Origin: Limisphaerales bacterium
Lineage (GTDB): Bacteria; Verrucomicrobiota; Verrucomicrobiia; Limisphaerales; UBA11358
Assembly (NCBI GenBank): GCA_003139955.1
Contig: PLHK01000087.1
Span: 41,234 to 84,250, forward strand
Direction of reading: 5' to 3'
Length of the DNA: 43,017 bases
The notes beneath the pieces are model-generated. The model was given only the letters and a program-made list of their open reading frames with translations. It was not told where the DNA came from and ran no database searches. Shown here piece by piece: positions 20,234-38,678 of the stretch. How positions within the stretch are numbered: position 1 is the stretch's first letter; each line of letters opens with the position of its first letter. The translations under genes were made by a program, and so were the position numbers.

Positions 20234-21031
20234 TTAATTACTCGCCAACATCAGATTTTTGATGGTCGGTGAAGCAACTCCGCCTTTAACTTCTTCGGTG
20301 ACGCAAAATTTGCCAGCGGTCTTGATGGCTCGGCTCGGCTTGAATTCTACCCGGACGGCCCCGTTTTGATCCATGTGGAAAACGCCCGCCGCCACGGGAT
20401 TTTGATTTTCATCCATGACCCACAGTTCGTAATCCTTGTCCGCCGGCAGCGTCTTGAGATTTTGCGCAACGAGGATGCCGTCCTGTTTTTCATTGTCCCA
20501 CAGCGAAACGGCGATGGCCTTTGGCGCGTCGGCGATGAGCGAGTTCAACATCGCGATCCGCAAGCCGGCCAGCCGGTTCGTCTCCTGCAACGCCAGCACC
20601 GTCTGCTGCAAAGAATTTGTTGCGGCGGATAGTGACTGCGCGAGCTGGTTCAAGCTGCTGATCTGTTGCGCCTGCTCGCCAACTGTCTTCTGCAAATGCG
20701 AGTCCTGCACGTTTAGCAAAAGACACAGCGCGGCAAAGCCGGTGGCCAACGACCACGATAGCCACGCCAGCGGGTTGAATTTTTTGTCCGGCAGCGAAAC
20801 TGTTTTTTGCGGCGGCGCGATCTGCGCCAGAATTTTTGCGCGCAATTGCCGCGGCGGTTTCACCACTGGCAACGCGCCCGCGAGCGCACTGGTGGCGGTG
20901 CTCAAACGGGCGACATATTCCTGTAATTCAAGATTGGCGCGCAATTTCTGCTTGAACTCGCGCGCCTCGGTGTCGCTCAACGCGCCCAAGACATGCAGTG
21001 AAGCCTGCTCTTCGAGACGTTCGTCAATCAT
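20234..21031 (-). CDS. RskA-type transmembrane anti-sigma factor
   Basis: The 265 residues start with a typical anti-sigma domain (LEEQASLHVLGALSDTEAREF, about 1-70) that would clamp the ECF sigma factor. One membrane helix follows at about 110-130 (LAWLSWSLATGFAALCLLL), then a predicted coiled coil rich in Gln, Leu and Asn (about 130-170). The periplasmic C-terminal RskA domain contains VSLWDNEKQDGILVAQNL and DYELWVMDENQNPVAAG. There is no zinc HxxxCxxC motif, so it is not a ChrR/ZAS type. Release would be by regulated proteolysis, as in other RskA proteins. Its start overlaps the sigma gene stop (ATGA). Confidence 0.9.
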   Translation of the reverse strand: MIDERLEEQASLHVLGALSDTEAREFKQKLRANLELQEYVARLSTATSALAGALPVVKPPRQLRAKILAQIAPPQKTVSLPDKKFNPLAWLSWSLATGFAALCLLLNVQDSHLQKTVGEQAQQISSLNQLAQSLSAATNSLQQTVLALQETNRLAGLRIAMLNSLIADAPKAIAVSLWDNEKQDGILVAQNLKTLPADKDYELWVMDENQNPVAAGVFHMDQNGAVRVEFKPSRAIKTAGKFCVTEEVKGGVASPTIKNLMLASN

Positions 21032-21687
21032 AGAACGCCCTCCAGTTGGTCGCGCAGTTTCAGCAAACCGCGCCGGATGCGCGCCTTGATGGTGCCGAGC
21101 GGCGCGTTTAATTTTTTTGAAATCTCGTCCTGCGTCAGGCCGGAAAAATAGGCCAGTTCAATCGCCTGCCGCTGTTCCTCCGGCAGTTCAACGATGGCCG
21201 AATGGATGAACTTCGCCTTGTCGTGCCCGTAAAAAATTTCATTGGCCGAATCAGCCACTTCGGACGCGATGTTGTGCGCCACGCCGGCTTGCTCCGCGAG
21301 GCGCGTGCGCCGTTGCGAGGCGCGGATGCGGTCAATCGCCTTGTTGCGCACGAGAATTACGGCCCAGCTCGCGGCTTTGCCAAGTTTCGGATCGAAGCGC
21401 CCGGCTTTTTCCCAGATTTGCACGAACGCTTCCTGCAAGACATCTTCCGCCTCGCCCGCGTCATTCAGGATTTTGGAGGCGACCGAAAACATCAGTGTGG
21501 CGTGGCGGTCGTAAAATTCGGCGAACGCCCCACGATTTCCGTCCGCGATCCGTCGCAGCAACTCGATGTCGTCGTCTTGGATTTCCGGTTCGTTCACGGG
21601 CTGGCTTAAAGTTATGAAATGGCGCGCCGGATGCGCCGGAAATTCCGGCCACATCCGCACAAAATGAGTTTGCGCACACACGCTCAT
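21028..21687 (-). CDS. ECF RNA polymerase sigma factor, SigK-like
   Basis: Region 2 is visible as AFAEFYDRHATLMFSVASKILND and EDVLQEAFVQIWEKAGRFDPKLGKAASW, and KAIDRIRASQRR completes it. Region 4 runs through VELPEEQRQAIELAYFSGLTQDEISKKLNAPLGTIKARIRRGLLKLR. The pairing with an RskA-type anti-sigma factor points to the SigK-like ECF group. The ATG at 21687 lies about 36 nt after the expected transcription start of the divergent promoter; a GTG at 21597 (before NEPEIQDDD) would give a more usual ECF N-terminus. Autoregulation is likely, because a matching promoter element precedes it. Confidence 0.9.
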   Translation of the reverse strand: MSVCAQTHFVRMWPEFPAHPARHFITLSQPVNEPEIQDDDIELLRRIADGNRGAFAEFYDRHATLMFSVASKILNDAGEAEDVLQEAFVQIWEKAGRFDPKLGKAASWAVILVRNKAIDRIRASQRRTRLAEQAGVAHNIASEVADSANEIFYGHDKAKFIHSAIVELPEEQRQAIELAYFSGLTQDEISKKLNAPLGTIKARIRRGLLKLRDQLEGVL

Positions 21688-21729
21688 ATCAAAACAGCCG
21701 GCAATTTACAAGTTGGCACTTCAATGGAA

Positions 21730-21757
21730 CAACGCGCGCGGCGGCAAAACGGATGCA
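21730..21757 (-). promoter_or_regulatory. ECF-type promoter of the sigma/anti-sigma operon
   Basis: On the minus strand TGCATCC (21757-21751) is followed after 16 bases by CGTTG (21734-21730). The layout matches SigK-type promoters (CATCC, 16-17 bp, CG-rich -10), which would make the sigma operon autoregulated. Confidence 0.5.
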
Positions 21758-21768
21758 AAAAGATTCTG

Positions 21769-21796
21769 TGCATCCAAAGACACGCGACATACGATT
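21769..21796 (+). promoter_or_regulatory. ECF-type promoter of the desaturase operon
   Basis: TGCATCC (21769-21775) is followed after 16 bases by CGATT (21792-21796). The start point expected 6-8 bp later falls on or next to the desaturase ATG at 21803. Together with the minus-strand element it makes a back-to-back 7-bp inverted repeat (21751-21775). Confidence 0.5.
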
Positions 21797-21802
21797 TAAC
21801 CT

Positions 21803-22822
21803 ATGAAACAGAAAATGAGCCACGCCACAAAAACAAAATCAGCCGGTGGGGGAAACGTTTTGCGGTCGGTCGTGCACTGGTTCGACTCGGATTACGGTAA
21901 CGAAAATCTCGCCGCCATCCGCGCCAAGCCCGACAAAATTGAAGTCATGCGGGTGCTGCCGTTTCTGCTGTTGCACCTCGGTTGCCTCGGAGTTTTTGTC
22001 GTCGGCTGGAGCTGGACGGCGGTTGCGATCGCCGTGTTTTTATATCTCGTGCGGATGTTCGCCATCACCGGCTTTTATCACCGCTATTTTTCGCACAAGA
22101 CGTTTCACACTTCTCGCCTCGCACAATTTATATTTGCCCTCATCGGCGCAACCGCCGTGCAGCGCGGCCCGCTCTGGTGGAGCTATCAGCATCGCCATCA
22201 CCACAAACATTCCGACGACGAAGAAGATGTCCACTCGCCGACGCTGCGCGGCTTCTGGTGGTCGCACATCGGCTGGATCACCAGCGCGCGAAATTTTCCG
22301 ACCGATTATTCGCAAGTGCGCGACTTGGCAAAATTTCCCGAACTGGTTTTCCTGAACCGTTTCGATTCGCTCGTGCCGGCGTTGTTTGCCGTCGCGCTGT
22401 TCACGCTCGGATATTTTCTCGGTGAATTTTCCCCGTCGCTCGGCGTGACTTCGTGGCAATTGCTCGTCTGGGGATTTTTCATCAGCACGACGGTTTTGTT
22501 TCACGCGACTTCCAGCATCAATTCTCTCGCGCATCTCCTCGGCAAACGTCGTTACGAAACCAAGGACAACAGCCGCAACAGCCTTTTCCTCGCGCTCATC
22601 ACGCTCGGCGAAGGCTGGCACAACAATCATCACCGCTACATGAACGCGACGCGTCAGGGTTTTTACTGGTGGGAAATTGACATTTCCTACTACCTGCTCA
22701 AGGCGCTTTCGTGGACCGGTCTCATCTGGAACCTCAAACCCGTCCCGCTCACCGCTTATGAAAATGACCATCCAATTCGCACCGGAAAAAATCTTTCTGC
22801 CAACCATTCGCATCGCGCGTGA
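21803..22822 (+). CDS. Membrane acyl desaturase (delta-9 acyl-CoA/acyl-lipid desaturase family)
   Basis: The 339 residues have the three His boxes of the di-iron membrane desaturases: HRYFSH (about residue 93), HRHHHKHSDDE (about 132) and HNNHHRY (about 274). Two pairs of membrane helices surround them (LPFLLLHLGCLGVFVVGW, and the pair near 195-240). Such enzymes put a cis double bond, usually at C9, into acyl-CoA or lipid-bound acyl chains with O2. The ATG at 21803 lies at the expected transcription start; MSHATK at 21815 is an alternative start. It is the first gene of the remodelling operon, and its product is the natural substrate for the methyltransferases downstream. Confidence 0.93.
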   Translation: MKQKMSHATKTKSAGGGNVLRSVVHWFDSDYGNENLAAIRAKPDKIEVMRVLPFLLLHLGCLGVFVVGWSWTAVAIAVFLYLVRMFAITGFYHRYFSHKTFHTSRLAQFIFALIGATAVQRGPLWWSYQHRHHHKHSDDEEDVHSPTLRGFWWSHIGWITSARNFPTDYSQVRDLAKFPELVFLNRFDSLVPALFAVALFTLGYFLGEFSPSLGVTSWQLLVWGFFISTTVLFHATSSINSLAHLLGKRRYETKDNSRNSLFLALITLGEGWHNNHHRYMNATRQGFYWWEIDISYYLLKALSWTGLIWNLKPVPLTAYENDHPIRTGKNLSANHSHRA

Positions 22823-24087
22823 AACGGGTCGCCATCATTGGAACCGGTATTGCCGGCCTGGGCTGCGCGCATTTTCTGCATCGCCGGTTCGACCTGACGC
22901 TTTACGAGAAGAACGACTATGCTGGCGGCCACTCGAACACGATCACCGTCGCTGAAGAAAATCGCTCCGTACCGATTGACACCGGCTTCATGGTGTTCAA
23001 TGAAGTGACTTATCCCAATCTCACGCGGCTCTTCCGCGAACTTGGCGTCGCCATTAAGCCGACAAACATGTCCTTCAGCGTGCAGCATCTGCCGACCGGT
23101 TTGGAATTTTGCGGCACGAGCCTGAATCACATTTTCGGCCAGCGCAAAAACATTTTCCGCCCGCGTTTCTGGAAAATGATTTTGCACATCAACCGTTTCA
23201 ACATGGAAGCCATTGAAGCGTTGTCCTCGGCGAACTTTCAACACTACACGCTCGGCGAATACGTCCGCGAACGCAAATACGGCGACGACTTCCTGAATTT
23301 TTATCTTGTGCCGATGAGTTCCGCCGTCTGGTCCACGCCGCCGGAATTGATGCTGGAGTTCCCCGCCATCACGCTGCTGCGATTTTTTCACAATCACGGT
23401 TTTCTCGGCCTGCACACGCAGCATCCGTGGCTCACGGTCGTCAACGGCGCGAAATCCTACGTCGAAAAAATCACCGCGCCATTCCGCGAAAAAATAAAAC
23501 TAAGATCCGGAGCGGTCAGCGTCCGCCGTGAGAGTGGTGGCGTGAAAGTCACCGACGTTTCCGGCGCGACAGAAAGTTTCGATCACGTCATTTTCGCCAG
23601 CCACGCGGACGAAACCTTGAAACTTCTCACCGACGCCGATGAGTCGGAAAGGAAATTGCTCGGCGAATTCAAATACCAACCGAACTCCGCGCTGCTGCAT
23701 ACCGACGCCTCCGTGATGCCGGAAACAAAACTGTGCTGGTCGTCGTGGAACTATCGGATTGATCGCGCCGTGAACGGGAAATTTTTGCCCTCGACGATTT
23801 ATTGGATGAACCGTTTGCAAGACGTCTCTGACCGGCAGAATTATTTTGTCTCCATCAACGGCGAGGATTCCGTGAATCCAAACTTGATTTTGAAACGTAT
23901 TCAATACGAGCATCCGTTGTTCAGCCTGGGTGCGACCCGGGCGCAACGCGAGTTGCCGAAACTGAACGAGCGCATGACCAATGTCTTTTTTTGCGGCAGT
24001 TATTTTCGCTATGGCTTCCACGAGGACGCCTTCACGTCCGCGCTTGACCTGTGCCGCGTCCTGACCGGGGAAAGGATTTGGGCATGA
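22819..24087 (+). CDS. FAD-dependent amine-oxidase-like oxidoreductase
   Basis: The 422 residues start with GTG overlapping the desaturase stop (GTGA). The Rossmann start is VAIIGTGIAGLGCAHFLHRR, with Glu in LTLYEKNDYAGGHSNTI binding the FAD ribose. PIDTGFMVFNEVTYPNL follows, and the FAD-binding C-terminal segment is VFFCGSYFRYGFHEDAFTSAL. Proteins of this type stand next to DUF1365 and CFA-like genes in many bacteria; flavoproteins of such clusters include the desaturase-like enzyme of the Rhodobacter furan fatty acid pathway. The reaction here is not known; oxidation of a methylated or unsaturated acyl chain is a fair guess. Confidence 0.88.
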   Translation: MKRVAIIGTGIAGLGCAHFLHRRFDLTLYEKNDYAGGHSNTITVAEENRSVPIDTGFMVFNEVTYPNLTRLFRELGVAIKPTNMSFSVQHLPTGLEFCGTSLNHIFGQRKNIFRPRFWKMILHINRFNMEAIEALSSANFQHYTLGEYVRERKYGDDFLNFYLVPMSSAVWSTPPELMLEFPAITLLRFFHNHGFLGLHTQHPWLTVVNGAKSYVEKITAPFREKIKLRSGAVSVRRESGGVKVTDVSGATESFDHVIFASHADETLKLLTDADESERKLLGEFKYQPNSALLHTDASVMPETKLCWSSWNYRIDRAVNGKFLPSTIYWMNRLQDVSDRQNYFVSINGEDSVNPNLILKRIQYEHPLFSLGATRAQRELPKLNERMTNVFFCGSYFRYGFHEDAFTSALDLCRVLTGERIWA

Positions 24088-24878
24088 ACTCCTGCCTCTA
24101 CGAATGTTCCGTGATGCACCACCGGCTGGCGCCGAAGGTTCACCATTTTTCGCACGATATTTTCATGTTCTACCTGGATCTGGACGAACTGGAAATCGTC
24201 GCGCAGAAAATTTTTCTGTTCAGCTACAACCGCAAAAATCTTTACAGCTTCCGTGACACCGACCACGAACCCGCCGGAAAAAATCCGCTCAAGGAACGCA
24301 TCGTCGGCTTCCTGCGCCAGAACGGAATTGACCTCGGCCCGTTCGGCCGCGTGATGCTGCTGACCTTGCCGCGCGTCGCCGGCTACATTTTCAATCCCGT
24401 CTCGATTTACTATTGTTTCAACGCCGGAGGCTCGCCCGTCTGCTCCGTCGCCGAGGTCGGCAACACGTTTCGCGAGATGAAATTATTTTTGCTCCGCCGC
24501 GAAGAACTTAACGCGGGCACGACCTTCGCCAAAATCGTCCCGAAACATTTTTACGTCTCGCCGTTTTCCAGCCTTGATTTGAGTTTCGATTTCAAACTGA
24601 AAATTCCCGGCGACAAGCTGGACATCAAGATTGACGACCGCGACGGCGCGGACAAAGTTCTCATCAGCACGCTCACTGGCAAACGCGCCGCGCTCACGAA
24701 TAAAAATCTCGCGTGGTTCACGCTCAAGTATCCGTTCGTCACGCTCAAGGTGATTTTCCTGATCCACTGGCACGCGCTCCGGCTCTGGCTCAAGCGCGTC
24801 CCGTTTTATCGCAAGGTGGAAAACGCCGCATTGCAACGCGAAGTGTTACGCCCACACTCAACCCTATCTTCAAAATGA
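24084..24878 (+). CDS. DUF1365 family protein
   Basis: The ATG at 24084 overlaps the previous stop (ATGA) and gives 264 residues. Typical blocks are SCLYECSVMHHRLAPKVHHFSHDIFMFYLDLDEL at the N-terminus, then GRVMLLTLPRVAGYIFNPVSIYYCF, VGNTFREMKLFLL and KHFYVSPF. The C-terminal WFTLKYPFVTLKVIFLIHWHALRLWLKRVPFY ends in a hydrophobic stretch. DUF1365 has no proven function. It is nearly always found next to an FAD amine-oxidase-like gene and a CFA-like gene, as here, so it is thought to act on the same lipid. Confidence 0.9.
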   Translation: MNSCLYECSVMHHRLAPKVHHFSHDIFMFYLDLDELEIVAQKIFLFSYNRKNLYSFRDTDHEPAGKNPLKERIVGFLRQNGIDLGPFGRVMLLTLPRVAGYIFNPVSIYYCFNAGGSPVCSVAEVGNTFREMKLFLLRREELNAGTTFAKIVPKHFYVSPFSSLDLSFDFKLKIPGDKLDIKIDDRDGADKVLISTLTGKRAALTNKNLAWFTLKYPFVTLKVIFLIHWHALRLWLKRVPFYRKVENAALQREVLRPHSTLSSK

Positions 24879-26152
24879 ACCAGCCAATCGCAGCCTTGAG
24901 CCCAGCACTCGCCCATCCGCGCGCCGAAAAATCCGGCGGCTTTTACCAGCGCGTCGTCATGCAATCGCTCGCGCAAATGACGCTCGGCTGCCTGCACCTT
25001 GAACTGCCCGGCGGCACAAAAAAAACCATCGGCCAGCCCGGCGCGAAAATTTCCGCCAACGTCCGAATCGTGAACTGGAATTTTTTCAAGCGCTGCGTTT
25101 TGTTCGGCGACGTCGGCTTCGGCGAGGCGTTCGTGGACGGCGATTGGGACACCGACGACATCACCAAAGTCATTTCGTGGTTTATTCTCAACGTGGAAAA
25201 TTCGCCCGCGATGTCCGGATCGCGCGGTAAAAAATTTCTGGTCAACCTGCTTGGAAAATACAACCGGATCCTGCATTTGCTCCGGCCGAACAGTTTGGAG
25301 ACCAGCCGCCGCAACATTGCCGAGCATTACGATTTGGGAAATGATTTCTATAAATTGTTTCTCGACCCGACGATGACTTATTCATCTGCATTGTTTGACG
25401 CCGCTATGCAGACTTTGGAAGAAGCCCAGGTCGCCAAATACGACCGCCTCTGCCGCCAGCTCAAATTAAAACCCGGCGAACACGTGTTGGAAATCGGCAG
25501 CGGTTGGGGTGGATTCAGTTTACACGCCACGAAAAATTACGGCGTCCGCACCACGACTGTCACCATTTCCGAAGAGCAATTCAAATACGCCCGCGAACTT
25601 TTTCAGAGAGAAAATCTCGCCGACAAAATTGAGATCAAGCTGATGGATTATCGTTTGTTGACCGGCCAGTTCGACAAAATCGTTTCCATCGAAATGCTCG
25701 AAGCCGTCGGCGATGCGTATCTCGAAACCTATTTCGCCAAGTGCCACGAGGTCTTGAAACCCGGTGGCCTGCTCGCGTTGCAGATGATCACCTGTCCCGA
25801 TTCGCGCCACGATTCGCTCCGCAAAAATGTGGACTGGATTCAGAAGCACATTTTTCCTGGCTCGCTGCTGCTGTCCGTCCATCGCGTCAACGAGGCGCTG
25901 CGCAAAACCGGCGATTTGTTTTTGCACGACTTGAAAGACCTCGGCCTTTCCTACGCCGAGACGTTGAAACGCTGGCGCATCGCGCTCAATCAAAACGAAA
26001 CCGCCGTGCGCGCGCAGAATTTCGACACGCGCTTCCTCCGCAAATGGAATTACTACTTCAGCTACTGCGAAGCCGCGTTCGCCATGCGGAACATCACCGT
26101 GGTGCAGGCGATTTACACGCGACCGAACAATCCAACCTTGCAACTGCCATGA
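24875..26152 (+). CDS. Cyclopropane-fatty-acid-synthase-like methyltransferase (first copy)
   Basis: The ATG at 24875 overlaps the DUF1365 stop; the longer frame from 24713 runs inside that gene. The 425 residues have an N-terminal lipid-binding-like region (GDVGFGEAFVDGDWDTDD) and the SAM domain with EHVLEIGSGWGGFSLHA, VTISEEQF and IVSIEMLEAVG. Compared with E. coli Cfa, the Glu of the bicarbonate site is kept (EMLEAVG), but the position of the His in LLHTIG reads Gln here (LALQMIT). The same change occurs in DUF1365-linked relatives. This could mean methylation without ring closure, but that is inference. It transfers a SAM methyl to an acyl double bond. Confidence 0.92.
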   Translation: MNQPIAALSPALAHPRAEKSGGFYQRVVMQSLAQMTLGCLHLELPGGTKKTIGQPGAKISANVRIVNWNFFKRCVLFGDVGFGEAFVDGDWDTDDITKVISWFILNVENSPAMSGSRGKKFLVNLLGKYNRILHLLRPNSLETSRRNIAEHYDLGNDFYKLFLDPTMTYSSALFDAAMQTLEEAQVAKYDRLCRQLKLKPGEHVLEIGSGWGGFSLHATKNYGVRTTTVTISEEQFKYARELFQRENLADKIEIKLMDYRLLTGQFDKIVSIEMLEAVGDAYLETYFAKCHEVLKPGGLLALQMITCPDSRHDSLRKNVDWIQKHIFPGSLLLSVHRVNEALRKTGDLFLHDLKDLGLSYAETLKRWRIALNQNETAVRAQNFDTRFLRKWNYYFSYCEAAFAMRNITVVQAIYTRPNNPTLQLP

Positions 26153-26484
26153 TCATTTTTCTCCGCTGCGCGTTCACCTTCGTCCTCGTCACCATGCTTT
26201 GCGCGACGAGTTGGGCGAGCTACCAATGCCCGATCTGGAAAACGCCGCAGGCGCTCGTCACGCATCCGTGGTTCATCGCCACGCTGTTCGATTGCTACTT
26301 TGGTTTCCTAACATTTTACGTTTGGCTTGCCTACAAAGAAACATCCAACGTCGCGCGCATCGCCTGGCTGATCGCGATTCTGCTGCTCGGCAACATCGCG
26401 ATGTCCAGCTACATGCTCCTCACGTTGTTCCGGCTGCCTACGAGCGCCACGATTGACCAAGTTTTGCTCCGCGCGAAAAAATGA
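26149..26484 (+). CDS. Small membrane protein, DUF1475-like
   Basis: The 111 residues start with an ATG overlapping the CFA stop (ATGA). Three hydrophobic segments are visible: IIFLRCAFTFVLVTMLCATSW, FIATLFDCYFGFLTFYVWLAY and IAWLIAILLLGNIAMSSYMLL. The motifs WFIATLFDCYFGF and YKE match what I remember of DUF1475, a family of about 110 residues known from plants and from bacterial lipid clusters. Its role is unknown. The ATGA overlaps at both ends argue that it is a true member of the operon. The family name is less certain than the gene itself. Confidence 0.75.
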   Translation: MIIFLRCAFTFVLVTMLCATSWASYQCPIWKTPQALVTHPWFIATLFDCYFGFLTFYVWLAYKETSNVARIAWLIAILLLGNIAMSSYMLLTLFRLPTSATIDQVLLRAKK

Positions 26485-26987
26485 ATCCCTGCGCCATGCC
26501 ACAAACCGAAAATCCCTCGCGCCTGATAAAATTCTGGCGCGAACGCGTGGTCGGGCTGATCGGTTCGCAACTGACGCAGGGCGTGACGCCGCAAAAAATC
26601 GCGCTCACCATCGCGCTCGGCATCAATCTCGCGATGTTCCCGATTCTTGGCTCGACCACGTTGCTGTGCGCCGCCGTCGCCTTCTGGCTCAAGCTGAACC
26701 AGCCCATCATCCAGCTCGTCAACTGGCTCGCTTATCCGTTGCAGTTCGCCATGCTGCTTCCGTTCATCCGAATCGGCGAATGGCTCACACGCGCCCCGCA
26801 AGTGACTTTTTCCATTCCGCAAATGTTGCAAAAATTCCACGACGCGCCGGGGAAATTTTTGGGCGAATTCGGGATGACGGGCGTTCACGGCATCATCGCG
26901 TGGCTGCTCATCGCGCCGATTTTGTCGGCGCTGATTTATTTCGTGTTGTTGCCGCCGCTGAAAAAACTGTCGCAACTCAAAAAATGA
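26481..26987 (+). CDS. DUF2062 membrane protein
   Basis: The 168-residue protein starts with an ATGA overlap; MPQTEN five codons later is an alternative start. QGVTPQKIALTIALGINLAMFPILGSTTLLCAAVAFWLKLNQPIIQLVNWLAYPLQ is the DUF2062 hallmark, with helix-breaking Gly and Pro residues in two membrane segments. A third helix is at the C-terminus (IIAWLLIAPILSALIYFVLL), followed by a basic tail. DUF2062 proteins are uncharacterised and often fused or linked to glycosyltransferases and lipid genes. Confidence 0.85.
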   Translation: MNPCAMPQTENPSRLIKFWRERVVGLIGSQLTQGVTPQKIALTIALGINLAMFPILGSTTLLCAAVAFWLKLNQPIIQLVNWLAYPLQFAMLLPFIRIGEWLTRAPQVTFSIPQMLQKFHDAPGKFLGEFGMTGVHGIIAWLLIAPILSALIYFVLLPPLKKLSQLKK

Positions 26988-26988
26988 A

Positions 26989-27780
26989 ATGCTGACTGAA
27001 TTTTTCAATGCGTTGTGGCCGACTTGCGTTTTTGCAATCGCGCTGATGCTCTTCATCTGGTGGCTCGCGCTGCGGATCAACAACCTTGGCATCGTAGACA
27101 TCGCATGGTCGTATGCGTTCGCGCCCGCGGCCATTTTTTTTGCGGCGACGGCGCACGGCGATTTGACGCGACGCTGGCTTATCGCCGGCATGGCGACGCT
27201 GTGGAGCGTGCGCCTGGGCACGCATCTTTACATCCGCGTCATGGGCCACCATCCGCGCGAAGACGTGCGCTACGCCAAGATGCGCGAGAAGTGGGGCAAG
27301 AATCTGAAATCGCAGGTGCTGATTTTTTTTGAACTTCAAGCCGTTTTGATCGTGCTGCTCGCGATTCCGTTTCTGGTCATCTGCCTCAACGACCGTCCCG
27401 GAATTTCGATTTTAGAATGGCTGGGCGTGGCGATTTGGTTCGTCGCCGTGGTGGGCGAAGGCGTCGCCGATTGGCAGTTGAAACAATTTCGCGCCAACCT
27501 GGAAAACAAAGGGAAAATCTGCGAGCTTGGATTGTGGAATTATTCGCGCCATCCAAATTATTTTTTCGAGTGGCTGGTTTGGGTCGGATTTTTTGTGTTT
27601 GCGCTCGGCTCGCCGCTCGGTTGTGCGACGATTTATTGCCCGGCGCTGATGTTGTTTTTTCTTTTACGCGTCACCGGCATTCCGCTGACCGAGGAACTTT
27701 CCGTGAAAAGCAAAGGCGACGCGTATCGCGAATATCAACGCACCACGAGCGCGTTCGTGCCGTGGTTCAAGAAAAAATAA
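26989..27780 (+). CDS. DUF1295 membrane protein, steroid 5-alpha-reductase fold
   Basis: The 263 residues form about six membrane helices. Family blocks are [18 protein letters not shown] near residue 28, then [29 protein letters not shown]. The reductase-like C-terminal block is [25 protein letters not shown], with a final [33 protein letters not shown]. The HPNYF and EYQ..TSAFVPW motifs match the NADPH-binding end of the steroid 5-alpha-reductase superfamily. The family could reduce an activated C=C bond in a membrane lipid, for example a methylene or enone intermediate; that is inference. It starts 1 nt after the previous stop. Confidence 0.9.
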
Positions 27781-27781
27781 T

Positions 27782-28900
27782 ATGAGTGCTGAACAAACTT
27801 TGACGCTGAAACCGGCCACGACGACAAATCATCTCGCGCTGCCGAAGCCGACGCTGACGCTGGACCGGTTGCTGGAAAAAAATCTGCTGCCCGACTGGTT
27901 GATCCGCATCGGCATCCGCCGGTTGTTGCACGAGCGGCTGCGCGAGGAAAATCACGGCAGCGCCGAGGCGCAGCAGGCGCACTTGCTGAAGCTCGTCACG
28001 GAATTGAAACAAAGTCCAATCGCCGTTGAGACGAAGGCCGCGAACGAGCAGCATTACGAAGTGCCGACGCGGTTTTATCAGCTTTGCCTTGGCGCACGGT
28101 TGAAATACAGCGGCGCGCTTTGGCCGGATGGCGTGACGACTTTGGACGCGGCGGAAGAAACCATGCTCAAGCTGACGTGCGAACGCGCGCAACTGGCCGA
28201 CGGACAAAACATTTTGGAACTCGGCTGCGGCTGGGGTTCGCTGTCTTTGTGGATGGCGGAAAAATTTCCGAATGCGCGCATCACCGGCGTTTCCAATTCG
28301 GCGACGCAGAAGCTGCACATTGATGCCGAGGCGCAGAAGCGCGGTTTGAAAAATCTCCGCACCATCACATGTGACATGAATCGCTTCGAGGCTTTGGAAC
28401 ACGGCGCGGAAAAATTTGACCGCGTGGTTTCGGTGGAAATGTTCGAGCACATGAAAAATTACGAGCGGCTTATGGCGAACATTTCGCGCTGGCTCAAGCC
28501 GGACGGAAAATTGTTCGTCCACATTTTCACGCACAAGGAATATGCGTATCACTTCGTCGCGCGCGATGAGTCCGACTGGATGGCGCGTTATTTTTTCACT
28601 GGGGGCATCATGCCGAGCGACGATTTACTCCTCTATTTTCAACGCGATTTGAGCATTGAAAATCATTGGCGCGTGAACGGCACGCATTACGAAAAAACAG
28701 CCGAGGCTTGGCTGGCGAACATGGATGCGCATGAAAAAGAAATCCGCCCGCTCTTCGCGCAAACCTACGGCGCGGAAAACGAAACGCGCTGGTGGGTTTA
28801 CTGGCGCGTGTTTTACCTGGCGTGTGCGGAGCTTTGGGGCTTTCGCGGCGGCGAGGAGTGGCTGGTGTCGCACTATTTGTTTCAGAATAAAAATAACTGA
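27782..28900 (+). CDS. CFA-like SAM methyltransferase, coclaurine N-methyltransferase-like branch (second copy)
   Basis: The 372 residues differ clearly from the first copy. The N-terminal half has [27 protein letters not shown], typical of the branch that includes plant coclaurine N-methyltransferase. The SAM motif is [35 protein letters not shown] and [11 protein letters not shown] keep both the Glu and the His that bind bicarbonate in Cfa. The C-terminal [18 protein letters not shown] is usual for the branch. It starts 1 nt after the DUF1295 stop, a common pairing. The acceptor could be an acyl double bond or an amine group; sequence alone does not decide. Confidence 0.9.
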
Positions 28901-30761: not shown

Positions 30762-33700
30762 ATGAACCAATTGATTTTTTCTGTCTGTTCAATATTTAAA
30801 TCTCGCATTCTCGTCTTGGTAACTTCGTTCCTGATTGCGGGTATCAGCACCGGTTTTAGCCAGTCTAATGCAATTCCAATCACCACGCTGATCAATGGCG
30901 ACTTCGGGTCTGCCGCCACTCAAACCGGTGCTGCAGTTTTGGGTTCTGCCGGTGATGCGTGGAATGCTCTCAACGGCAATGCCAACACCATTTTTGATTC
31001 ATCCAACAACGTCGTCAGCGGTGTCCGGCTTACGTTGGTCAACGCCAGCCAGCTTTATACCGATGCCGGTGGAATCGCCATGGATGCCAACACCACTGCT
31101 TTGATGGAGGATTATGCCTTTGGCTATAACAATCCAAATTACACGGCGACGGTCACAGTAAGCCTCACCGGTTTGACGAAATATACCAACAGCGCTTTCA
31201 ACTTGGTGGTCTACGCCGCCGGCGACCAAAACGGTCAAGGTGCCATTCTCAATTTGACGGCGGGGGCGACGGGCGGAAACTCTGCCAGCACCTTAGCCAC
31301 CACCGCCACCACGCGGCAAATTTCTACAGGCCTGGGAGTCGCCTACAATACTTTCACGGGCATCCTGACCAATGGCACGCTTTCGTTCGCAGCCACCGAG
31401 AGCGCGGGCCAGATGTTCACGGTTGTGAATGGTTTTCAGCTTCAGTTCAGTCCAATCATCATTGCGACGCAACCCATTTCTCAAACCAACTCGGGCGGCA
31501 GCACTGTTTCGCTAAGCATCGCTGCCATTGCCTCGTCGCCTTTGAGCTATCAATGGCAGGCCGGAGCCGTGGGCAGCGGCCTCTACACCAACTTGACGGA
31601 TGGCGGCCCGATTTCCGGCTCGATCGGCAATGTCCTGTCGATTTCCGGCTTGAACACCAATTGGGCGCTGGCCTATCGGGTGATTGTGGCCAGCGGTTTC
31701 AACTCCATCACCAGCGCGGTGGCGACAGTCACCGTGTTGCCGCCCGTGCCGCCGACGGTCATTGGCGTTTTTAACCTTGGGACGACAAATGTTGAAATCG
31801 TTTTTTCAAAACCCGTCACGGTCGCCAGCGCCACTAACGTCGCAAATTATGCCTTCTCAAACGGACTGGCCATAACCAATGCGTCATTGGGCGCGGATAA
31901 TATGACGGTGACGCTTACGACGGTGCCGCTGGCGTATGGCAGCAATTATGTCATCGTCATCAATAACATTTTTGATCTGGCCATTCCGCCGGACAGCATC
32001 GCGACCAATACGCTGGCCGGTTTCACGGCTTCGCCTTATGCGTCGCAAGACATCGGCGCTCCGCCCATTCCTTCCACTTTTACGCTTACGACCAACGGCG
32101 TGAATGTCAGCAGTGCCGGCAACTACATCGGCGGCACCAACGATCAATTCAATTTTCAGTATCAATTGCAGAACGGCAATTTCGACGTCACCGTCTGTCT
32201 GGCCGGATTGGGTTTGTCCGACCTGTGGGCGCAGGCCGGCTTGATGGCGCGCGCGAGTCTGGTGACGGGCAGTCCGTTCGCCGCCACACTGGCCACGCCG
32301 GGCATGAACGGCGAATTTTTTGCCGACCGTACGACCACCAACGGCGTGGCCGCCACCTCGGGAAATTTTCCGGTGAATTATCCCAACACCTGGCTGCGGC
32401 TCAATCGCGTCGGCAATGTGTTTACCGGCTTTGGCAGTTATGACGGAATCAACTGGATGCAACTCGGCGCGGTGACGTTGGCGGTGCCGAACCAGATTTA
32501 CCTCGGTCTGGCCATCGCCAGCCATAACACGAACCAACTGACGACGGCGCAATTCACGAATTACGAAACCACGCCGACCAATGCGGTGACGGCCACGATC
32601 ATCAATCCGCACGAACCAATCGGGCCGTCCAGTCGCAAGACGGGCATTGTCTTTTCTGAAATCATGTATAAACCCGTAGCGCGCACCGATAGCAATAACG
32701 TAGAATTTTTGGAACTCTATAATTCCAATCCGTTTTTTCAAGATATCAGCGGCTATCAAGTGACGTGTGCGGACATGAATTATACTTTTCCCGCCAACAC
32801 GTTGATTCCCGGCGGTGCTTATTTTGTTTTGGCCGCCTCGCCGCAAAGCATCGCCAATGTCTATGGCGTCACCTCCAATGTCTTTGGCCCTTACAACGGC
32901 AGCCTGAAAAAATCCGAGACGCTCGAACTGTTTGACGAACAAACCAATGTGCTGCTGACCGTGCCCTACAGCGCCACTTATCCGTGGCCGGTGGCGGCGA
33001 GCGGCACGGGACATTCCATCGTGCTGGCCAAGCCGAGTTACGGCGAGGGCGATCCGCGTGCGTGGGACATCAGCGACACGGTCGGCGGTTCGCCCGGACA
33101 AATGGACGGGTTCACGCCCAGTCCGTTGCGGAATGTCGTCATCAACGAGATTTTGCCGCACTCGGAAAATCCGGCCGTGCCGCAGTTCATCGAACTTTAC
33201 AATCACAGCACGAACAGCGTGGATCTTTCCGGCTGCATTTTGACCGACGATCCGACGACCAATAAATTTGTCATTCCATCCGGCACTGTCATCGGCCCGG
33301 CGAGCTTCATTTCCTTCACGCAATTGCAATTCGGTTTCACGCTCAACGGCATTGGCGAGACGCTTTATTTTATCAAGCCGGATCACAGCCGCATTCTGGA
33401 TGCCGTGCAGTTCGGCGCGCAGGCCAACGGCGTGTCTTATGGTCGCTGGCCGGATGGCGCGAATGATTTTTACGCGTTCACCACCAACACGCCCGGCACG
33501 AACAACAGCGCGATTTTGATCGGCGACATCGTCATCAACGAATTGATGTATGACCCGATTAGCGGCAATGATGACGACCAATACGTCGAGCTTTATAACA
33601 AAGGAACCAACACCATCAATCTGGCCGGCTGGCAATTCACTGCGGGAATCACTTTTACATTTCCAAGCGTCGTGATTGCACCGAACGGCTATCTGGTAGT

Positions 33701-36700
33701 CGCGCGCAACACGACTAATCTGTTCGCCAAATATCCGAACTTGAACAGTGGAAACACGGTGGGCAATTACAGCGGCAAGCTGTCGCACGACGGCGAGCTG
33801 GTGCAGTTGTCCATGCCACAAACGCTCTACACCAACACCGCCATTTTGGTGGCCGAAGATCAGGTCACCTACGGCACGGGCGGACGCTGGGGCGAATGGT
33901 CGGGTGGCGGTGGCAGCAGCTTGGAACTGATTGATCCGCATTCCAATCACCGGCTCGCGTCGAACTGGGCGGACAGCGATGAGACGCAAAAATCCGTTTG
34001 GACCAACGTGGAATTCACCGGCGTGCTCGACAATGGTGCGAATTATGATCCGTCCATTGACTATGCCCAGATCGGCCTGCTGGACGACGGCGAATGTCTG
34101 GTGGACAACATCGAAGTGGATTACAACGGAAACAACTATGTTTCCAACGGCACGTTTGAAAGCGGCACCAGCGGCTGGTCGTTCCAAGGTTGTATGTCGC
34201 GTTCCAGTCTGGAAAACAGCGGGTATCAAAGCAACTATTCGCTGCACATCCGGTGCAGCGACAAGATTTGGACCGGAGACAACTCGTGTCAGGTGGCCTT
34301 GAATCCGAACTCGCTGGTGGCCGGCCAGACTGCGACCTTGCGGTTCAAGGCGCGCTGGTTGCACGGCTGGCCGGAAGCCTTGTTGCGTTTGAATGGCAAT
34401 TGGCTGGAAGCCACGGCGGTGCTGCCGATCCCAACCAACCTCGGTTCGCCGGGCGGACCCAACAGCCAATATGTGACGAACGCTGGGCCGGCAATTTACA
34501 ATGTCACGCACACGCCATCGTTGCCGGCGGCTTACCAACCGGTGGTGGTGATCGCGAATGTTCACGATCCCGAAGGTGTGCAAAATCTGACGCTTTATTA
34601 TCGGCTGGATCCAGCGACGAATTGCACCGCCGTGCCGATGAATGACGGCGGCACGAACGGCGACGCCATCGCGGGCGACGGGATTTACAGCGCGACGATT
34701 CCCGGTCAGGCCGCGAATCAAATCGCCGCGTTTTATATTTCCGCCACGGACAATCTGGGCGCAGCGACACGCTTCCCGGCGATTCGTCCCAATGACAATG
34801 AGCCGGTGCGCGAAGGCGTGGTGATGTTCGGCGACGGCAATCCGGGCGGCAGTTTCGGCGCTTATCATTTGTGGGTCACGCAGACCAATGTGAACCGCTG
34901 GATCAACTTGGCGGACTTGAGTAACGAAGGGAACGACGGCACGTTCGTCAACGGCAGCCGCGTCATTTACAATATGCAGGCGCGTTATGCGGGCAGCCCG
35001 TATCTGCAGTCTTTTGATACGCCGACCGGCAATCTTTGCCATTACAAATGGGAATTCAACGACGACGATAAATTTCTCGGCGCGACAGATTTCAGCAAGA
35101 TTCATCAGCCGGGCAATAATCCGGGCGATGACGCGAGCCTCCAGCGCGAGCAACTGGCCAACAGCTTCCTGCGCGCGCTCCGCGTGCCGTGGCTTTACAA
35201 GCGCTATGTGGCGGTCTATGTGAACGGCAACCGGCGCGGCAGTTTGATGGAAGACACCCAGGTGCCGGGCGGCGACGTGGTGAAGGAAAATTTCCCCAAT
35301 GACACGGATGGCTACCTTTACAAAATGCAGCCGTGGTTTGAATTTCAACCGTTCCCGTCCGGCTACTCGCTGGGCTACAACAATAATGCTTTCTGCAACC
35401 TGCTGCCTTACACGACCACCGGCGGCGTGAAAAAAGTGGCGCGCTACCGCTATAATTATGAAGTCCGTCGCACGCCCGATTCCGACAGCGACTTCACGAA
35501 TGTCTTCTCGGTAATTGACGCCGCCAACTTTTCCAGTTCGCCCAACTATGTCGCGAATCTGGAAAACATGGCGAACATGGAAAATTGGATGCGCGTGTTC
35601 GCGGCCAACCACGCTGCCGGCAACTGGGATACTTTCGGCGCGCAAACGGGCCAGAATCTTTACGGTTACATCGGCACGCTGAGCACGAAGTATTCGCTGC
35701 TGATGTGGGATTTCAACATCGTCATCGGCAACAGTGAATCCTGGGGGCCGGGTCAAAATCTGTTCACCCTGAATCCGCAAGACTATAACTTGGCGGCCAT
35801 CTACAGCAACCCGACTTTTCTGCGGATGTATTGGCGCGCGTTGCAGGAACTGGTCAACGGTCCGCTCAACGTCGCCAACAGCGGGCCTTTGTTGATGTCC
35901 AAATACAATGCCTTCATTGATAATGGCCTGTCCGTCGAAAACCCAACCGCTGCCACCGCGCCCGGCGGAGGTTACCCGGGCATCGAAGCGTGGCTCACCC
36001 AGGCGCAAAGCAGTATCGCGTCGCAACTGGCCGCCGTGAATGCCGCGAGTTTCGCCGTCAATCCCGCCGTGACGACCAGCAACAACGTGGCGTATGTCAC
36101 CGGTCAGGCTCCGGTGAATGTGGCCAACGTCTGGATCAACGGCGCGGCGTATCCGCTGACGTGGACAAGCCTGAATAATTGGAGCATCGCATTGCCGCTG
36201 GCCAGCGGGACAAATAATCTGAGCGTGGTCGGTGTGGACAAAAATAATCAGCCGATCACGGGCGACAGCAACACCGTCAGCGTCGTCTATAACGGAACCA
36301 ATGCGTCACCCGTCGGCAAGATCGTGATCAATGAAATCATGTATGCTCCCGCCGTCAACAACGCGCAGTTCGTAGAACTCTATAATAATTCGACCAATTT
36401 GGCGTTTGATCTGTCGGGCTGGCAGCTTCAAGGATTGTCCTACACCTTCCCGAACGGCTCGGTTCTTGAGCCGACGAACTATCTGGTTTTGGCGGCGAAC
36501 AATGCCGCCTTCGCGGCCGCTTACGGCGCGACTAATCCGGTGTTTGATATTTTCAGCGGAACATTGTCGCCGAATGGCGAAACGCTGACACTGAACCTTG
36601 CCAGCAACACGCCTGTGACCAAGGTAAAATACGAAAATCAGTTGCCTTGGCCAACCAATGCCAGCAGCACCGGCGCGTCTTTGCAATTGATTGATCCCAG

Positions 36701-38678
36701 TCAAGACAACTGGCGCGTTGGCAACTGGACAACGGTGCTCTCCAACGCGCCGGTGACATCGCAATGGACTTATGTCACAGTCACGGGAACGGCGTCGTCT
36801 TCCTTGTTTTATATCTATTTGCAGTCCGCCGGTGATGTTTATGTGGATGACATCCAACTGGTCGCGGGTTCCGTGCCGGGAGCGGGAACGAACACTTTAG
36901 TTGACGGTGATTTTGAATCCGGGTTTCCCGGCCCGTGGACGGTTTCGCCGAATTTGACCAATTCCGTCTTGAGCACCGTGGTCAAACATTCTGGCAACGG
37001 TAGCCTGCATCTGATTTCCACCGCCGCCGGCACGACGCAAAGCAGTGCGATCTGGCAGACGATTTCACCGGCATTGAACAGCGGTGCGACTTACACTTTA
37101 AGTTTCTGGTATCTGCCCAGCACTAACGGCGGCCCGCTGACTTTGCGTTTGTCTGGATCCGGCACGGTCGCGACGGTCAATCCGGCTCCCCCGTCGTCCG
37201 GCTTAATTTCTGCCACGCCCGACGCTTTGAACAGTGTCGCGACTTCCTTGACGCCATTTCCATCCTTGTGGATCAATGAATTGCAAGTGGACAATCTGAC
37301 CGGCATTACCAACCGCGCGGACCAGCGCACCGGCTGGCTCGAACTTTACAATCCCAGCACCAATGTCATTTCCTTGAACGGACTTTATCTCGCCAACAAT
37401 TATACCAACCTATTGCAATGGGCTTTCCCGGCCAACGCGAGCATCAACGCCGGCCAGTTCGAGGTGATTTTCGCCGACGGCGAGACGAATCTTTCCACCA
37501 CCAACGAACTACACACCGGTTTTGTTCTGCCCAGCGGCACGGGTTCGGTGGCGTTGACCCGGCTCGACTCGAATGGTCAGCAGCAGGTGCTCGACTACGT
37601 TGACTACCAGAATATTTATCCGAATGATTCCTACGGCTCGTTGCCGGACGGGCAAAGTTTTAACCGCCAGGAATTTTTCCAGGCCACACCCGGCGCTCCG
37701 AACAACGGCACGGCCACGCCGCTGGCTTCGTTCATTGACTACACCTCGCCGGGTTCCGTCTATGCGCAAAACTTCGATGGTCTGCCCAATCCGGGGGCAA
37801 CTTCGGTCAACGCGGCCAATCCAGTGACAATTAACAGCATAGCCTACTCGCTTAACAATCCTTATGATTTTGCCTTTCCGGTCGCCGCCAATGGCGGGCT
37901 GGGAATTTCCGCGCTGGCTGGCTGGTATGGTTCGGGCGTTTCCAGTTCCAGATTGGGCGCCACGGATGGCGACCAGACCACGGGCGGACAGATCAGTTTT
38001 GGATTGCCGAGCAGTTCCAACCGCGCGCTCGGATTGCTCGCCACCAGTTCCACGGGCGGAACGGCGTTTGGCGTGCGGTTCATCAACGGCACCGCCACCA
38101 CGCTTACGCGGATGAACCTGCAATTCACCGGCGAAGTCTGGCGGCAATCCAACCTGCCAAAAACGTTGAAGTTCGGTTATTACATCGACCCGACCGGCAC
38201 GACGACGTTCCCTGCCAGCGCGACCGCCTTTATTCCCGCGTTGAACGTGAGCATTCCGACGGTCGCTGCGGATTCGGGCGGCGTGGCGGTGGACGGCACT
38301 GCGTCCATCAACCAGACCAACTTGAGCGTGTTGAACCAAACCATCACCAACTGGCCGCCCGGTGCGGCTTTATGGCTGGTGTGGCAGATGACCGATGTCA
38401 CCGGCAAAGCGCAGGGTTTGGGCATTGATAGTTTGAGCTTCTCGGCGAGCGTGCCATTGCCCGTGCCGGTGGGCATTCAGGTTTATGGCACTAATCTCTT
38501 CCTCAACTGGTCCGGTGTGGCGGGACAAACCTATCAACTCGAATCCACGACTAATCTGACGACCCCAGTCTGGACGCCCGTCGGAAGTCCGGTGACGGGA
38601 ACGGGCGGAATCTTGACGCTCACCAACAGCCTTGGTTCTTCGACGCAGGACTTTTTCCGCCTGCGGCTGGTGAATTAG
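30762..38678 (+). CDS. Giant secreted CotH-kinase / lamin-tail-domain protein, 2638 aa
   Basis: A signal peptide (ILVLVTSFLIAGISTGFSQS, about 1-34) is followed by a beta-rich start (to about 230) and an Ig-like domain (232-328; PLSYQWQAG). Next are an SbsA-like Ig domain (327-423) and a concanavalin-like domain (437-603; DGINWMQLG). Five lamin-tail domains lie at about 627-762, 790-903, 920-1063, 1852-1980 and 2167-2320, with repeats of the type VINEIMYxP...FVELYN. Carbohydrate-binding-like domains (1102-1225, 2002-2135) contain NGTFESGTSGW and DGDFESGFPG. A choice-of-anchor-like domain (1243-1343) precedes the CotH-like kinase region (1367-1767; CHYKWEFNDDDKF, SLMEDT, LLMWDFNIVIGN). The C-terminal module (2566-2638) ends in FFRLRLVN and is typical of Verrucomicrobial secreted proteins. 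Substrate and place of action are unknown; cell surface or export is likely. Confidence 0.93.
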   Translation: MNQLIFSVCSIFKSRILVLVTSFLIAGISTGFSQSNAIPITTLINGDFGSAATQTGAAVLGSAGDAWNALNGNANTIFDSSNNVVSGVRLTLVNASQLYTDAGGIAMDANTTALMEDYAFGYNNPNYTATVTVSLTGLTKYTNSAFNLVVYAAGDQNGQGAILNLTAGATGGNSASTLATTATTRQISTGLGVAYNTFTGILTNGTLSFAATESAGQMFTVVNGFQLQFSPIIIATQPISQTNSGGSTVSLSIAAIASSPLSYQWQAGAVGSGLYTNLTDGGPISGSIGNVLSISGLNTNWALAYRVIVASGFNSITSAVATVTVLPPVPPTVIGVFNLGTTNVEIVFSKPVTVASATNVANYAFSNGLAITNASLGADNMTVTLTTVPLAYGSNYVIVINNIFDLAIPPDSIATNTLAGFTASPYASQDIGAPPIPSTFTLTTNGVNVSSAGNYIGGTNDQFNFQYQLQNGNFDVTVCLAGLGLSDLWAQAGLMARASLVTGSPFAATLATPGMNGEFFADRTTTNGVAATSGNFPVNYPNTWLRLNRVGNVFTGFGSYDGINWMQLGAVTLAVPNQIYLGLAIASHNTNQLTTAQFTNYETTPTNAVTATIINPHEPIGPSSRKTGIVFSEIMYKPVARTDSNNVEFLELYNSNPFFQDISGYQVTCADMNYTFPANTLIPGGAYFVLAASPQSIANVYGVTSNVFGPYNGSLKKSETLELFDEQTNVLLTVPYSATYPWPVAASGTGHSIVLAKPSYGEGDPRAWDISDTVGGSPGQMDGFTPSPLRNVVINEILPHSENPAVPQFIELYNHSTNSVDLSGCILTDDPTTNKFVIPSGTVIGPASFISFTQLQFGFTLNGIGETLYFIKPDHSRILDAVQFGAQANGVSYGRWPDGANDFYAFTTNTPGTNNSAILIGDIVINELMYDPISGNDDDQYVELYNKGTNTINLAGWQFTAGITFTFPSVVIAPNGYLVVARNTTNLFAKYPNLNSGNTVGNYSGKLSHDGELVQLSMPQTLYTNTAILVAEDQVTYGTGGRWGEWSGGGGSSLELIDPHSNHRLASNWADSDETQKSVWTNVEFTGVLDNGANYDPSIDYAQIGLLDDGECLVDNIEVDYNGNNYVSNGTFESGTSGWSFQGCMSRSSLENSGYQSNYSLHIRCSDKIWTGDNSCQVALNPNSLVAGQTATLRFKARWLHGWPEALLRLNGNWLEATAVLPIPTNLGSPGGPNSQYVTNAGPAIYNVTHTPSLPAAYQPVVVIANVHDPEGVQNLTLYYRLDPATNCTAVPMNDGGTNGDAIAGDGIYSATIPGQAANQIAAFYISATDNLGAATRFPAIRPNDNEPVREGVVMFGDGNPGGSFGAYHLWVTQTNVNRWINLADLSNEGNDGTFVNGSRVIYNMQARYAGSPYLQSFDTPTGNLCHYKWEFNDDDKFLGATDFSKIHQPGNNPGDDASLQREQLANSFLRALRVPWLYKRYVAVYVNGNRRGSLMEDTQVPGGDVVKENFPNDTDGYLYKMQPWFEFQPFPSGYSLGYNNNAFCNLLPYTTTGGVKKVARYRYNYEVRRTPDSDSDFTNVFSVIDAANFSSSPNYVANLENMANMENWMRVFAANHAAGNWDTFGAQTGQNLYGYIGTLSTKYSLLMWDFNIVIGNSESWGPGQNLFTLNPQDYNLAAIYSNPTFLRMYWRALQELVNGPLNVANSGPLLMSKYNAFIDNGLSVENPTAATAPGGGYPGIEAWLTQAQSSIASQLAAVNAASFAVNPAVTTSNNVAYVTGQAPVNVANVWINGAAYPLTWTSLNNWSIALPLASGTNNLSVVGVDKNNQPITGDSNTVSVVYNGTNASPVGKIVINEIMYAPAVNNAQFVELYNNSTNLAFDLSGWQLQGLSYTFPNGSVLEPTNYLVLAANNAAFAAAYGATNPVFDIFSGTLSPNGETLTLNLASNTPVTKVKYENQLPWPTNASSTGASLQLIDPSQDNWRVGNWTTVLSNAPVTSQWTYVTVTGTASSSLFYIYLQSAGDVYVDDIQLVAGSVPGAGTNTLVDGDFESGFPGPWTVSPNLTNSVLSTVVKHSGNGSLHLISTAAGTTQSSAIWQTISPALNSGATYTLSFWYLPSTNGGPLTLRLSGSGTVATVNPAPPSSGLISATPDALNSVATSLTPFPSLWINELQVDNLTGITNRADQRTGWLELYNPSTNVISLNGLYLANNYTNLLQWAFPANASINAGQFEVIFADGETNLSTTNELHTGFVLPSGTGSVALTRLDSNGQQQVLDYVDYQNIYPNDSYGSLPDGQSFNRQEFFQATPGAPNNGTATPLASFIDYTSPGSVYAQNFDGLPNPGATSVNAANPVTINSIAYSLNNPYDFAFPVAANGGLGISALAGWYGSGVSSSRLGATDGDQTTGGQISFGLPSSSNRALGLLATSSTGGTAFGVRFINGTATTLTRMNLQFTGEVWRQSNLPKTLKFGYYIDPTGTTTFPASATAFIPALNVSIPTVAADSGGVAVDGTASINQTNLSVLNQTITNWPPGAALWLVWQMTDVTGKAQGLGIDSLSFSASVPLPVPVGIQVYGTNLFLNWSGVAGQTYQLESTTNLTTPVWTPVGSPVTGTGGILTLTNSLGSSTQDFFRLRLVN

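Follow-up and report, generated by a model that had tools for sequence, protein, structure and literature searches.

How is transcription divided between two divergent operons, one encoding a SigK-like ECF sigma factor and its anti-sigma factor, the other headed by a fatty acid desaturase gene? The question arises in a 43,017-nucleotide stretch of DNA from a Limisphaerales bacterium (hereafter the window), in which TGCATCC occurs on both strands between the two genes, each copy being followed by 16 nt and then by CGTTG on the sigma side or CGATT on the operon side. The coordinates given for these elements in the original prediction proved exact when re-checked (Table 1); the operon-side core, CGATT, occupies positions 21792-21796, 16 nt beyond the plus-strand TGCATCC. 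SigK promoters have the consensus CCATCC and CCGAAT, and the elements had been read as back-to-back SigK-type promoters that would induce both operons strictly in parallel, with the inverted repeat as a possible operator for another regulator. From the comparisons below it is very probable that they are two divergent promoters read by a single ECF sigma factor, one promoter serving the sigma/anti-sigma operon and the other the desaturase operon.

Table 1. Genes and predicted promoter elements of the divergent locus. Positions are those of the window.
Feature	Position	Strand	Details
RskA-type membrane anti-sigma factor	20234..21031	-	PF10099 RskA_C, E 5.7e-19; overlaps end of sigma gene
SigK-like ECF sigma factor	21028..21687	-	Pfam Sigma70_r2 and r4_2; start ATG 21687 or GTG 21597
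Sigma operon P2 (probable), sigma70-type, extended -10, TTGTAA-N17-TATGAG	21683..21711	-	TTG-N20-TA in 13/14 loci
Sigma operon P1, -10 element CGTTG	21730..21734	-	16 nt from -35; CGT in 14/14 loci
Sigma operon promoter P1, -35 box TGCATCC	21751..21757	-	TGCATC in 14/14 independent loci, seventh base C in 13/14
Desaturase/ufa operon promoter, -35 box TGCATCC	21769..21775	+	TGCATCCA invariant in 14/14 loci, also in G070
Desaturase/ufa operon promoter, -10 element CGATTTAA	21792..21799	+	CGA at N16 in 14/14 loci
Fatty acid desaturase, first operon gene	21803..22822	+	PF00487
FAD amine-oxidase-like, UfaD-like	22819..24087	+	PF01593
DUF1365 protein, UfaO-like	24051..24878	+	PF07103, E 1.3e-74
Cyclopropane-fatty-acid-synthase-like methyltransferase, UfaM-like	24713..26152	+	PF02353, E 3.4e-85
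DUF1475, DUF2062, DUF1295, second CMAS methyltransferase	26155..28900	+	Conserved rest of operon

The best match of the sigma factor among solved structures is Mycobacterium tuberculosis SigK (4nqw, E 5.7e-33), and the match to Rhodobacter sphaeroides RpoE is weaker (E 1.4e-21). The NCBIfam SigK model PRK09646 is its second-best match, below the cut-off of that model, and the only close relatives in the named-genome collection come from two MAGs of the same genus. The residues that align with the redox cysteines C133 and C183 of SigK are alanine and glutamine, and none of 15 orthologues has cysteine at these positions (the G037 sequence is cut off before the second). The anti-sigma factor had been described as RskA-type, and it does contain an RskA_C domain. 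This domain is its only Pfam match; the protein has no ChrR-type zinc motif, its N-terminal region lacks cysteine, and no RskA of known structure matched it in sequence. The label 'SigK-type' is justified to the extent that SigK is the closest solved structure, but it needs care because the redox cysteines are absent and the RpoE/ChrR consensus TGATCC-N16-CGTA is equally spaced (PMC5507510).

To follow the two boxes among relatives we compared the window with 14 further same-genus genomes that have the divergent sigma/desaturase-operon pair; one near-identical locus was dropped, leaving 14 independent loci. Both boxes are present in all 14 although their flanks have diverged. TGCATCC is found in 14/14 loci on the operon side and 13/14 on the sigma side, the remaining locus having TGCATCT. 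On each side a CG lies exactly 16 nt downstream of the box in every locus; none has CG at offset 15 or at 17-19 on either side, and any other offset between 8 and 25 carries CG in at most eight of the 14. The -10 elements also differ by side without exception: the one facing sigma reads CGT and the one facing the operon CGA (14/14 each). Conservation in front of orthologous sigma operons, on which the original prediction had been staked beforehand, therefore holds for both boxes, with an invariant 16-nt spacer. Of the 49 genomes of the genus, 15 have the sigma gene, the desaturase gene and the DUF1365 gene, always all three together, and the other 34 lack both sigma and operon.

The distance between the boxes is less constant. 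It is 10 or 11 bp in 10 of the 14 loci, and 6, 9, 20 and 108 bp in G038, G018, G039 and G043, respectively, while the distance between an arm and the CG that belongs to it is the same in all. The G043 locus (L146, contig C106) has an insertion of about 100 bp between the boxes, which makes it a natural experiment in separating the two promoters.

Chance occurrence was modelled with 300 simulated sequences (first-order Markov, preserving dinucleotide composition) as long as the window. On average these held 0.09 single matches to TGCATCC-N16-CG[AT]T, compared with two in the window itself, and the divergent pair, present once in the window, did not arise in any of the 300 trials. At the scale of whole genomes the exact string is uninformative: TGCATCC-N15..17-CGWT has nine matches in the draft genome of the window (2.79 Mb, 174 contigs), which is near chance, and TGCATCC-N16-CGAWT occurs about 0-4 times per genome in almost every relative, with sigma or without it. 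Exact-pattern scans of whole genomes were therefore dropped as stand-alone evidence, and the case is built on conservation and position. A separate observation is that TGCATCCGACGAATTTCGCCAGGCGAAT has about 20 copies in the relative G069, many of them about 50 bases from contig ends; it probably belongs to a mobile or repeated element at which the assembly breaks.

Sequences unused in deriving the motif were also searched. In a set of 15 distant sigma orthologues, about 39-63% identical and mostly from other families of the order, NCATCC-N16-CGNA was found within 250 nt upstream in 10, with CG[TG]A at the P1 -10 offset in 10/15; a spacer of any different length between 8 and 25 gave none to two of the 15, and the remaining five orthologues had no match to the pattern in this region. 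The sigma operon is thus preceded by a fixed-spacer -35/-10 pair that is conserved among orthologues, as an autoregulated ECF promoter should be. Sigma copies that lie outside the divergent arrangement carry the pattern in four of five cases; the fifth (G034, contig 19) has TGCATCT-N16-CGTTTC, read by eye and also found by the model search. In G070, from another family, operon and sigma lie on different contigs, and the operon still begins with TGCATCC-N16-CGAATT. Second sigma copies in G034:C19, G012:C27, G008:C251 and G043:C80 (L157-L160) each have a similar box upstream, and an RskA-like partner is recognisable beside two of them.

When the window's genome was searched with a model built without that genome, the two sites ranked first and second, at 18.8 bits (operon) and 15.8 bits (sigma), and the next site scored 12.5. 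Across the 49 same-genus genomes, no site above 15.3 bits was found in those lacking sigma. The genus-wide model was trained on the two sites themselves, so its scores there are partly circular, and the independent evidence comes from the distant orthologues and from the model built without the window's genome; beyond the two sites the genus-wide search returned nothing recurrent that would indicate further regulon members, except upstream of the second sigma copies of G034 and G008. The regulon appears, from these searches, to consist of just two promoters, 11 bp apart. On this comparative sequence evidence both elements are real promoters, with fixed spacing, conserved, and occurring together with the sigma gene; their reader is most likely the adjacent SigK-like sigma factor, to judge from that co-occurrence and from position.

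Might the promoters instead be read mainly by another ECF sigma factor, the local one being only one of several regulators? The genome has about 15 sigma-like matches, and ECF groups can have similar promoters, as the RpoE/ChrR consensus TGATCC-N16-CGTA illustrates (PMC5507510). However, within the genus strong sites are confined to genomes with the window's type of sigma, and the box precedes the sigma factor's own gene even in distant families, and we regard this reading as very unlikely. The inverted repeat could also be seen as an operator through which a separate dimeric regulator would control both genes. It has two perfect 7-nt arms separated by 11 nt (25 bp in total), and in 10 of the 14 loci the arms are 10 or 11 bp apart, about one helical turn. 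Each arm, however, is the 7-nt box alone, ending with the -35 heptamer, and a rigid pair of half-sites does not fit separations of 6, 9, 10, 11, 20 or 108 bp combined with a constant arm-to-CG distance. The box is moreover found before sigma alone in distant orthologues and other sigma copies, and before the operon alone in G070, where the two are split. The operator suggestion is thus contradicted, each promoter standing alone, and we think it highly improbable. It is least probable of all that only one site is a functional sigma promoter and the other a chance or relic copy: the sigma side does score below the operon side, but either side is conserved on its own in 14/14 loci, among them the one with 108 bp between boxes, and autoregulatory boxes lie upstream of distant orthologues.

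Besides P1, the sigma operon probably has a second, sigma70-type promoter, which we infer from a conserved sequence between P1 and the sigma gene in 13 of the 14 loci (P2, consensus TTGTNN-N17-TATNAN with TG before the second hexamer). Counterparts lie upstream of the sigma genes of G070 (TTGTCA-N17-TATGAA) and G067 (TTGTCA-N17-TATAAA), and G044 has a perfect TATAAT as second hexamer; P2 is missing in G039, and it falls short in a stricter consensus scan. A sigma70-like promoter is conserved on the sigma side only. The candidate start codon ATG 21687 overlaps the P2 -10. The 30-codon extension that begins there has a frame unbroken in relatives and a weak codon-position bias, and G044 lacks the corresponding ATG; on account of these observations and of the absence of P2 from G039, the sigma start is given as either ATG 21687 or GTG 21597.

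Taken together, the locus is, as far as sequence can tell, a control circuit complete in itself and for the most part of an ordinary kind. The RskA-type membrane anti-sigma factor would keep the SigK-like sigma inactive until a signal arrives, whereupon the freed sigma would direct RNA polymerase to the two back-to-back TGCATCC-N16-CG[T/A] promoters. P1, on the minus strand, would drive the sigma/anti-sigma operon and so provide autoregulation, the plus-strand promoter would drive the desaturase-UfaD-DUF1365-CMAS lipid operon, and P2 would supply basal transcription of sigma and anti-sigma. The signal and the lipid chemistry, like P2, are inferred steps of this scheme. Strictly parallel induction of the two operons, as originally proposed, is doubtful because the -10 elements differ by side and sigma likely has P2 in addition; the constant contrast of CGT with CGA suggests a selected difference in strength. 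The 14 divergent loci form a natural series in which promoter strength could be related to the -35 spacing and to the sequence of the -10.

The desaturase ATG 21803 lies 6 nt past CGATT. From the position of the -10 the transcript is predicted to start at or near this first ATG, so probably either there is little or no leader or translation begins at the in-frame ATG 21815. The UfaM-like open reading frame as listed in Table 1 probably starts too early. Downstream of the methyltransferase, the order DUF1475-DUF2062-DUF1295-CMAS is the same in nearly all relatives whose contig extends that far. Beyond the operon, positions 30762-38678 (plus strand) encode a protein of 2638 residues in which lamin-tail, CotH and carbohydrate-binding domains are recognised. 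Overall, the operon probably modifies membrane fatty acids. Its UfaD-, UfaO (DUF1365)- and UfaM-like proteins suggest furan fatty acid synthesis, and the products are perhaps furan fatty acids, maybe protective; the Ufa assignments are made at family level only, from neighbouring genes of the CMAS, FAD amine oxidase and DUF1365 families.

Two known systems resemble the locus. In mycobacteria the SigK locus comprises Mb0457c, Mb0456c, UfaA1, Mb0453c, SigK and RskA, and SigK controls a small regulon that includes this locus, with autoregulation through the promoter of its first gene (PMC7509140, PMC10540498); UfaA1 is a CFA-synthase-like gene (PMC10540498). The C133/C183 pair is found in 94% of ECF18 and 56% of ECF19 sigma factors (PMC7509140). 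Likenesses to this system are the closest solved sigma (4nqw), the adjacent RskA-type anti-sigma factor, a CFA-synthase-like gene in the locus, and autoregulation. In contrast to Mycobacterium, where the target operon lies in line with sigma, here it is divergent, a desaturase gene heads it, and the sigma factor lacks cysteines 133 and 183. In the mycobacterial locus Rv0449c is an amine oxidase, Rv0448c a DUF1365 protein and Rv0446c a DUF1295 protein, which would carry the parallel with the present operon beyond UfaA1, the one gene named in the literature searched.

The other system is RpoE-ChrR (ECF11), known for the singlet-oxygen response in R. sphaeroides and Pseudomonas syringae; its conserved regulon has UfaD-, UfaO- and UfaM-type genes (PMC7380195, PMC6852236). 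The R. sphaeroides enzymes UfaM, UfaD and UfaO make a furan fatty acid, and DUF1365 is found in UfaO (PMC7380195); UfaD is RSP1091, which corresponds to a flavin-containing amine oxidase in P. syringae. Members of the P. syringae RpoE/ChrR regulon, with consensus TGATCC-N16-CGTA, are cfa and an amine oxidase gene, among others (PMC5507510). The present locus shares with this system an identical N16 spacing, autoregulation and, at family level, Ufa-type genes. It differs in its promoters (TGCATCC with CGTT or CGAT, versus TGATCC with CGTA), in an RskA_C anti-sigma factor that lacks the ChrR zinc motif, and in a sigma factor nearer SigK than RpoE.

The locus ties an RskA-type anti-sigma factor to a set of furan fatty acid genes familiar from ChrR-controlled regulons. 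What SigK/RskA responds to is reported as unknown (PMC7509140), and the locus points to membrane lipid oxidation as a candidate signal. A bolder reading, which we hold only tentatively and think rather unlikely, is that this lineage (Verrucomicrobia subdivision 3) has a cysteine-less SigK/RskA-type switch whose whole regulon, two promoters in all, serves a furan fatty acid operon and whose consistently unequal -10 elements set the levels of sigma and product differently; if true, it would suggest that membrane lipid damage is what SigK/RskA systems in general sense. Because the cysteine switch is lacking, we do not class the locus as a SigK/RskA system in the strict sense. Judged by sequence, it joins a switch of the SigK/RskA type to a Ufa-type operon and would work as both known systems do, and in the similarity of its sigma and anti-sigma factors it is nearer to SigK/RskA.
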